Shown in pieces: positions 23,437-23,871 of a stretch of 64,000 bases of DNA (its first letter is position 1; the number at the start of each line of letters is the position of its first letter). The stretch is taken from the IMG/VR virus record IMGVR_UViG_3300017917_002593, positions 1 through 64,000 of that record. One strand, given 5' to 3'. The notes under the pieces are model-generated. The model saw only the letters and a program-made list of their open reading frames with translations. It was not told the DNA's origin and ran no database searches. A program made the translations under genes and the position numbers. Origin of the DNA: a virus.

Positions 23437-23871
23437 GGCACTTTAAGCGATAAAGGCAAGCGCCGGCTAAAATCGGGCGCCCTATACCTGGACCTCGGGT
23501 CGCAGGGACGGAAATCTCTGGTCGCTAAGAGTACTCAACCACTATCCTTAACAGGACGTAGATCGCAAACTCGCCGCGGTTTGGTTGTTTGAAGCAAGAG
23601 AAAAGGCAAAAAGACGCTGTAGTGATACAGCACGTTTTACAAATATGTTAGCGTATATTTGTAAGACCGCCGTTGTAATAAGACGGGGATGGAGGTACCG
23701 GACAACCGCCTCTGATAAACACCCTAACGCTAAGTGACTATCCGAACTCGGATGATGTTCTTTGCCCTGTGCGGGCAAAGTGTGACCATTGAATCTGGAT
23801 GATATTTAAATCGCTTCGCTATTAATATTGCTTCGAGCGTTTAGCGAAGAAGCAAACGAACGCAGTTCGTT
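23437..23871 (+). ncRNA. Candidate structured non-coding RNA, about 435 nt
   Basis: No convincing gene on either strand for 464 bases, in a genome where most gaps are under 50. The 5' part is GC-rich (38 of 60 bases in 23461-23520 by hand count) against AT-rich flanks. Perfect or near-perfect stems follow one another: GCGCC/GGCGC at 23460-23480, CAGGGA/TCTCTG at 23503-23520, TCCT/AGGA at 23545-23556, a 6-bp stem with GTGA loop at 23616-23631, a 10-bp stem at 23637-23664, ATCCG/CGGAT at 23740-23753, an 8-bp stem at 23760-23780, an 8-bp stem 23814-23821/23842-23849, and an 8-bp stem with 3-base loop at 23854-23872. The long-range pair GCGAT/ATCGC (23447-23451, 23562-23566) is possible. It would be transcribed from the upstream operon or an unseen promoter. 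Identity is unknown; candidates are a large phage RNA of the GOLLD/ROOL kind or a group I intron relic. Confidence 0.6.

Follow-up and report, generated by a model that had tools for sequence, protein, structure and literature searches.

Polynucleobacter-1, the closest catalogued relative of the RNA described here, is entered in the family table of Weinberg et al. (2010; PMC2864571) under Burkholderiales and under fresh water or estuary; the column of that table that apparently stands for cis-regulatory carries a 'y'. Two larger RNAs, GOLLD and ROOL, are encoded in phages and prophages and are without an assigned function in the account given in PMC12286853. The RNA of the present locus (class A) matches the full Polynucleobacter-1 model and is about three times longer; compared with the table entry, from which the label 'fresh water' comes, it is found in phage contigs and has no constant gene downstream. 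It resembles GOLLD, ROOL and OLE, as these are described in PMC12286853, in being large and pseudoknotted. It differs in being smaller than the GOLLD and ROOL members described there and in having no tRNAs nearby in the window (the whole stretch of 64,000 nt that was analyzed, positions 1 to 64,000 of IMG/VR record IMGVR_UViG_3300017917_002593). Its most conspicuous element, a pair of twin repeats, is not among the features of GOLLD, ROOL or OLE described in PMC12286853.

The gene-free gap and the RNA encoded in it

The gap between the stop of the upstream GIY-YIG ORF (23436) and the next plausible gene start (23901) spans 464 bases (23437-23900) and is GC-rich in its 5' part. It contains or borders the following features:

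23008-23436, + strand: GIY-YIG gene, Pfam SegE_GIY-YIG (PF19835, E 5.7e-33), with the RNA directly downstream
23444-23872, + strand: complete structured RNA of class A, ∼430 nt (nhmmer profile, RNAalifold and pair counts)
23455-23590, + strand: Polynucleobacter-1 (RF01718), 5' third of the RNA (Rfam, 118.9 bits vs. gathering 37)
23872-23879, + strand: TATAAATA, the next gene's T4-type late promoter (read from the sequence)
23901-24698, + strand: next gene (ORF), 265 aa, N-terminus MKITELILEQ, outside the RNA

The original prediction of a hairpin-dense region at 23437-23871 was nearly right in extent, and its placement between the recombination operon and an exact late promoter is confirmed by the TATAAATA at 23872-23879. 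A plausible gene is indeed missing over the ∼464 bases. Short TTG-start ORFs are present in the gap (76 aa on the - strand and 50 aa on the + strand), and ORFs of at least 40 aa, mostly 40-60 aa, occur at the RNA in 100/174 homologues on the + strand and in 135/174 on the - strand; because they are inconsistent across the 174 homologues, we regard the gap as free of a conserved gene. The 265-aa protein encoded behind the gap gave neither a Pfam nor a PHROG match. Just 5' of the GIY-YIG gene, a 65-aa histone H1-like (Hc1) protein is encoded at 22811-23008 (PF07432, E 3.4e-13).

At the gathering threshold, Rfam detected only RF01718 and RF02980 over the 64-kb window, and the GOLLD, ROOL and OLE models were unmatched. 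At E ≤ 10 over 23300-24000 only RF01718 and one chance match were found, and ARAGORN predicted neither a tRNA nor a tmRNA in the gap. The proposed identity with GOLLD or ROOL was therefore not borne out, and neither Rfam nor ARAGORN gave a match to a group I or II intron, tmRNA, RNase P or tRNA remnant; the covariance-model check succeeded only for RF01718, over the 5' third. This match spans the full model (1-141 of 141), and Polynucleobacter-1 was also matched in 8/12 further loci tested. The RNA does not stop at a limit of ∼141 nt: covarying structure runs on to 23872, which affects the catalogued boundary and not the membership. The predicted large ornate RNA or new class is thus large, ornate and phage-borne, but its first third was already catalogued. 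The second Rfam match, freshwater-2 RNA (RF02980; 34398-34479, + strand, 57.8 bits vs. 49.9), is a cis-regulatory candidate located behind gp23, the gene of the major capsid protein, and directly 5' of an ORF at 34477.

The minimum free energy of -139.3 kcal/mol (shuffle mean -123.97; z -2.40; 1/100 shuffles equally low) is modest and too weak to decide alone, so the case was built on homologue covariation. Loci were collected from viral contigs with one 5'-part pattern, one 3'-part pattern and two neighboring proteins, and all counts are minimum numbers. An nhmmer profile of 463 columns, seeded on 23437-23881, matched 346 of the 423 collected sequences (among the matches listed), 275 of them nearly end to end. 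For the alignment, 174 representatives were chosen from 273 full-length copies; copies short of the model ends, near-identical copies, a duplicate locus (L001) and loci of the sister classes B and C cut by a contig end were left out before counting. Over 600 random pairs of 153, mean pairwise identity reached 0.709 in 23591-23806, 0.693 in the part covered by Rfam and 0.583 in 23807-23872; third codon positions of the neighboring gene gave 0.481. The remaining two thirds of the RNA are without an Rfam family, yet conserved as well as the Rfam part. We concluded that it is nearly certain that a large, real and partly catalogued RNA is encoded in the gap.

Covarying secondary structure

RNAalifold analysis of the 174 aligned representatives gave 104 pairs (energy -178.6 kcal/mol; covariation term 109.3). 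Covariation was assessed with a custom R-scape-like test, a G-test with APC whose null came from 20 simulations along a tree. Significant covariation was found for 45 pairs at E ≤ 0.05, of which 27 lie within the nested structure and 34 are over 80% canonical. The helices and pseudoknots are as follows:

23447-23451/23521-23525, + strand: P1, long-range helix (90.5% paired; 5' strand outside the Rfam model)
23460-64/23476-80, + strand: P2 (compensatory changes)
23487-94/23498-506, + strand: P3 (compensatory changes)
23536-41/23582-87, + strand: P5 (compensatory changes)
23561-66/23576-81, + strand: P6 (compensatory changes)
23634-23667, + strand: P9 hairpin, 13 bp, strongest covariation (both-side changes in 12/13 pairs)
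23648-23733, + strand: K1, P9 loop 23648-23653 with 23728-23733 (98.6% of cells paired; double changes in 5/6 pairs)
23672-23706, + strand: K2, 23672-23676 with 23702-23706 (paired in 96.7% of cells; exchanges UA→CG and GC→AU)
23685-23725, + strand: P11 (23685-89/23721-25) and P12 (23692-95/23709-12) with the conserved GGUACCGGACAACCGCC core
23760-23780, + strand: P15, hairpin flanked by the twin repeats (cells paired: 88.1% in count A1, 90.0% in A2)
23854-23872, + strand: P17, 3'-terminal hairpin (six significantly covarying pairs)

Pairing was counted cell by cell in two samples. In the 3' domain (A1; 60 sequences, 47 pairs including pseudoknots) 90.8% of cells were paired vs. 78.2% after shuffling, and over the whole RNA (A2; 40 sequences, 97 pairs) 92.0% vs. 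81.5%; in both counts 0/500 shuffles reached the observed pairing, and slid controls stayed at or below 49.3%. Double-change cells numbered 331 (A1) and 406 (A2) vs. 99 and 117. Because the structure was derived from the same sequences, which favors the cells-paired figure, the double changes are the stronger sign.

In P1, the pairs 23447/23525 and 23449/23523 covary significantly; this helix engages the loop of another, weaker hairpin (23514-23519/23527-23532), for which support is poor (61.5% of cells paired). P15 has double changes in 2/8 pairs (A1). K1 and K2 are long-range, non-nested pairings, that is pseudoknots, and could be intramolecular or intermolecular, either being compatible with the covariation. 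Within the Polynucleobacter-1 part, positions 23545/23552/23557 of a small hairpin also show a non-canonical three-way covariation, either U-C-C or C-A-U, which includes a pyrimidine swap, U/C to C/U.

The covariation test across homologous intergenic regions, which had been proposed as a check, thus gave strong compensatory covariation. The GC-rich 5' end and the stems of the original prediction are real, the stems being backed by covariation, and its view that the structure goes beyond the needs of a promoter or terminator is borne out by a large RNA covarying across phage homologues.

Position in the genome, sister classes and carrier phages

In 168/174 representatives the RNA directly follows a GIY-YIG gene, and in 162/168 cases it starts between -25 and +36 nt from the GIY-YIG stop. 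In loci found by the two RNA patterns and having enough upstream sequence, the gene was upstream in 105/107 and 70/72 (among the matches listed). Ten odd loci were inspected: eight have an extra gene between GIY-YIG and RNA, and in one (L114) the GIY-YIG gene is replaced. In nine of the ten, the RNA abuts the stop of the preceding gene; the tenth (L302) is without a clear 5' domain. Because the RNA abuts the preceding gene's stop even with GIY-YIG displaced or replaced, it is tied to the place and not to GIY-YIG. The predicted GIY-YIG association therefore holds as a positional one, but in some phages another gene intervenes or replaces GIY-YIG and the RNA follows that gene. The GIY-YIG protein is not favored as a partner of the RNA, since the RNA persists without an adjacent GIY-YIG gene. 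Different genes, including a second GIY-YIG-like gene, are inserted exactly at the GIY-YIG/RNA junction (L039, L042, L109, L279, L325, L351, L025 and L037), which looks like an insertion hot spot.

No recurrent promoter-like motif at a constant offset was found in the 130 nt upstream of 170 copies, which argues for transcription by operon read-through; a promoter-driven sRNA gene was rejected for lack of a conserved upstream promoter in these 170 regions. At the other end, the exact TATAAATA is present near the RNA end in 52/174 homologues, and other ATAAATA forms were seen in many of the 40 inspected. The late promoters stand directly behind the last hairpin, and the downstream genes differ between phages. 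The proteins of these variable genes, including that of 23901-24698, often have N-termini of the type M-K/R-I-x-E/D-L/I-I/L-x-E. We take these to resemble T4 capsid-targeting peptides, and the proteins are perhaps internal head proteins.

Since the RNA abuts the operon's last stop codon, it could have a role in cis, as only a structured 3' UTR that ends and stabilizes the recombination operon mRNA. Such a UTR would be in keeping with the start positions close to the GIY-YIG stop, with the failure to find an own promoter and with a final hairpin just before the late promoter or a convergent gene. We nevertheless consider it unlikely: a 3' UTR has no need of some 430 nt, of conserved loops and pseudoknots or of a conservation higher than that of adjacent third codon positions, and three unlike versions of the RNA keep the same specialized twin module.

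These versions were recognized in the protein-found loci. With at least 500 nt downstream, the profile matched beside GIY-YIG in 118 of them, elsewhere in 5 and not at all in 2 (among the matches listed); several matches covered the 3' end only, and these loci gave two other large RNAs, classes B and C. Class B shares the GGUACCGGUCAACCGCC core, with 3' model scores of 37-43 bits, and class C shares only the 3' end with class A. In four class B/C loci Rfam searched at E ≤ 2 gave nothing above the cut-off. The class patterns found at least 120 stretches of class B and 35 of class C, with GIY-YIG upstream in 110/119 B loci and 34/34 C loci that had enough sequence; since pattern searches supplied most of the loci, these numbers do not represent the frequencies of the classes. 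Covariation support is weaker for B and C than for A. At E ≤ 0.07, class B (96 representatives) had 10 significant pairs, nine of them in the structure, and class C (20 representatives) had 3, all in the structure. Common to A, B and C is a 3' module of two 7-nt direct repeats around a hairpin, which in B and C has a different sequence at the place of P15. Class A is a single-copy structured RNA on the + strand (one copy in the 86,211-base virus record that contains the window), and at least two other classes occupy its locus in other phages.

The GIY-YIG proteins are up to 97.8% identical between classes A and C, and up to 98.6% between A and B and between B and C. Such near-identity across classes suggests that whole RNA cassettes may be exchanged between phages at a fixed site. 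A module scan that did not demand equal copies, pooled with the loci already collected, gave no new class (class D); it gave 276 equal and 5 unequal matches inside A-C, and outside them 4/4 were unequal. In two loci with GIY-YIG (L167 and L188), the class A RNA was undetected by the profile and the 3' model found nothing.

The RNA is placed in an uncultured group of large T4-like phages. RNA-bearing contigs reach 354,680 bases, and ten large contigs had one strong match each; in nine of them E was 3e-29 or lower, and the diverged tenth gave 5e-8. The gp46 and portal proteins are ∼50% identical to those of jumbo phages such as PA5oct. In Pseudomonas jumbo phage PA5oct (L429, 70500-83500) the order gp55-gp47-gp46 ... 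baseplate hub (-) - structural - portal is kept, and the expected place of the RNA holds other small genes and a 663-base annotation gap (6018-6680 of the locus). The 3' RNA model gave no match in the PA5oct locus, nor in those of Melnitz, Variovorax V45v66, ACP17, BUCT-ZZ01, Atu_ph07 and Phosso. Blastn of a 434-nt query and a 178-nt consensus against 50,697 GenBank phage records gave no match. In bacterial genome contigs, nhmmer confirmed the RNA in 0/59 pattern matches; one Burkholderiaceae genome searched with RF01718 had no match, and the control search was equally silent.

The twin repeats and the proposed role of the RNA

The two copies flank P15:

23746-23756 (7-mer 23750-23756), + strand: twin repeat copy 1, ACUC + GGAUGAU (alignment, pattern counts)
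23793-23803 (7-mer 23797-23803), + strand: twin repeat copy 2, AUCU + GGAUGAU (alignment, pattern counts)

As RNA oligonucleotides the repeats of the module read ACUCGGAUGAU and AUCUGGAUGAU, and the consensus around P15 is ACUC-NNAURAN and AUCU-NNAURAN. The spacing is 47 nt in the window and 47-61 nt over 267 class A copies. In these, the 7-mers are equal in 266/267 and the three letters immediately before them always differ (267/267). In class B, the copies were equal in 94 of the 98 distinct RNAs and unequal in 1, and no pair was found in 3; in class C they were equal in 20 of 24 and differed by a single letter in 3, the remaining locus being misassigned. For the three classes together the copies agree in 283/288, with 14 different 7-mers; the 288 omit RNAs in which no pair was found (4/174 class A, 3 class B) and the misassigned C locus (L435). 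The search expressions fixed A, T (or C), A/G and A in both copies, so those invariances are partly built in, but the count in the 174-sequence alignment is free of this bias. There, 23750/23797 is GG in 101, AA in 72 and GA in 1; 23751/23798 is GG in 156, AA in 10 and CC in 8; 23754/23801 is AA in 116 and GG in 58; and 23756/23803 is TT in 142, AA in 28 and GG in 4. Independent letters would be expected to agree in about half of the sequences at positions 5 and 9 alone. The 7-mer changes amount to 49 tree steps, a number that recombination can inflate and that comes from a tree including the repeat columns.

Identical letters in parallel order are incompatible with Watson-Crick pairing between the copies. 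A GGAU/AUCU helix that RNAalifold drew between them was rejected, as 23751 varies and 23795 never does.

Direct repeats around a hairpin are prone to slippage, and the twin repeats are of this kind, so that mutation (gene conversion or slippage between the copies) could keep them alike. We consider this very improbable, because the flanks are fixedly different in 267/267 while the 7-mers agree in 266/267, over 49 tree steps. In the translational bypass of T4 gene 60, matched take-off and landing codons stand around a hairpin. The class A module is alike in its short matched sequences around a hairpin and its ∼50-nt gap, and the repeat can be read NNA-URA; the RNA differs in being without a reading frame. 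All three frames are represented among the spacings (47-61 nt), the ORFs are short and inconsistent, and a bypass element can be practically dismissed.

Two further readings were weighed for the repeats. The copies may, instead of contacting each other, both be bound by one trans partner, whether an RNA, a DNA site or a dimer of a phage RNA-binding protein; changes in that partner's specificity would then make both copies change together. The identity of the 7-mers without complementarity between copies points this way. So do the fixed differences (CUC/UCU, and mostly G/A), which are transitions and would allow one strand to pair with both by G-U wobble. No RNA column besides the second copy is strongly linked, the next best reaching at most about 0.5 bit, and no third cis strand pairing with both twins was found. 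The searches for a complementary strand, on the other hand, were negative: within 5 kb of the 174 loci the own type was found 59 times vs. 65.8 for other types, no trans partner strand was found in the 86-kb record, and ten large contigs showed no excess (16 sites vs. 20 in the reversed control). The allowed letters are also restricted (R, V, A, Y, R, A, N), for which free Watson-Crick pairing has no need. We give the common partner slightly less than an even chance. In the window's record the own 7-mer is present only in the two copies. Genome-wide avoidance of it, as of a nuclease target, was rejected, the depletion across loci being weak (214 seen vs. ∼250).

Alternatively, the copies could pair with each other in parallel orientation, like base with like base (G-G, A-A, C-C and U-U), in a helix bridged by P15. 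The DNA oligonucleotide d(ACTCGGATGAT) crystallized as a parallel-stranded duplex of identical bases (PDB 4RIP/4RIM; PMC4330391), and window copy 1 (23746-23756) equals this 11-mer letter for letter. The crystallized duplex consists of two identical synthetic DNA strands, whereas the phage twins are two segments within one RNA. As described in PMC4330391, A1 and C4-A10 are self-paired in the crystal, C2 and T3 are unpaired, and T8C is tolerated. In the RNAs, A1 agrees in 285/288, positions 2-3 never agree, and positions 5-10 agree in 287 to 288 of 288, so that positions differing between the copies coincide with the unpaired C2/T3 of the crystal; C-C at position 8, where the crystal accepts T8C, occurs in two natural RNAs. 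Seven successive identical positions varying together, as a parallel helix would require, were found in 283/288, with all four homo pairs seen and all three classes represented. Four symmetric A-A pairs between OLE RNA chains, described in PMC12286853, offer an RNA precedent. Against such a helix, the crystal is DNA and its authors, who expect 2'-OH groups to hinder the stacking in RNA, doubt the motif there (PMC4330391). Position 4 is C opposite U in 286/288, G to A is frequent at position 9, in the second stacked G-A step, and the exact 11-mer is present in only 27/288 copies, so the letter match may be coincidence. Parallel homo-pairing of the twin repeats is possible, at odds well short of even, and it is doubtful, slightly more so, that two hairpin-bridged NNAYRAN copies are the first natural parallel helix of identical bases recognized by covariation.

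The best explanation of the whole, to which we assign a probability of about 0.62, is an operon-tail, trans-acting structured RNA particle with a twin-repeat recognition module. On the sequence evidence, the RNA would be transcribed as the tail of the gp55-gp47-gp46-GIY-YIG operon and then trimmed from the transcript. The trimmed product would act in trans as a compact structural RNA and not as the leader or terminator of a neighboring gene, a trans-acting role that is likely; by analogy with OLE, ROOL and GOLLD it might self-assemble. The bridging hairpin would hold the copies in register, and these would recognize either each other, in a parallel helix, or a common partner, the class and the repeat letters setting which partner molecule is accepted. 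Its biological role may be that of an infection-stage RNA particle, encoded by a cassette that is exchanged between phages.

With this locus, a short catalogued motif of unassigned function becomes one end of a three-times-larger phage RNA. The two sister classes and the twin repeats are its most unusual part. Parallel covariation of identical letters would be missed by standard searches, which score Watson-Crick pairs; should the twin covariation reflect genuine homo-paired helices, the same signature could be sought in other RNAs. Parallel homo-pairing, if true, would be very surprising; the helix would then serve three exchangeable classes as their common specificity element and could mediate self-recognition or dimerization of the RNA. 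Three large RNAs at one locus with only this module in common constitute a natural experiment on its role.
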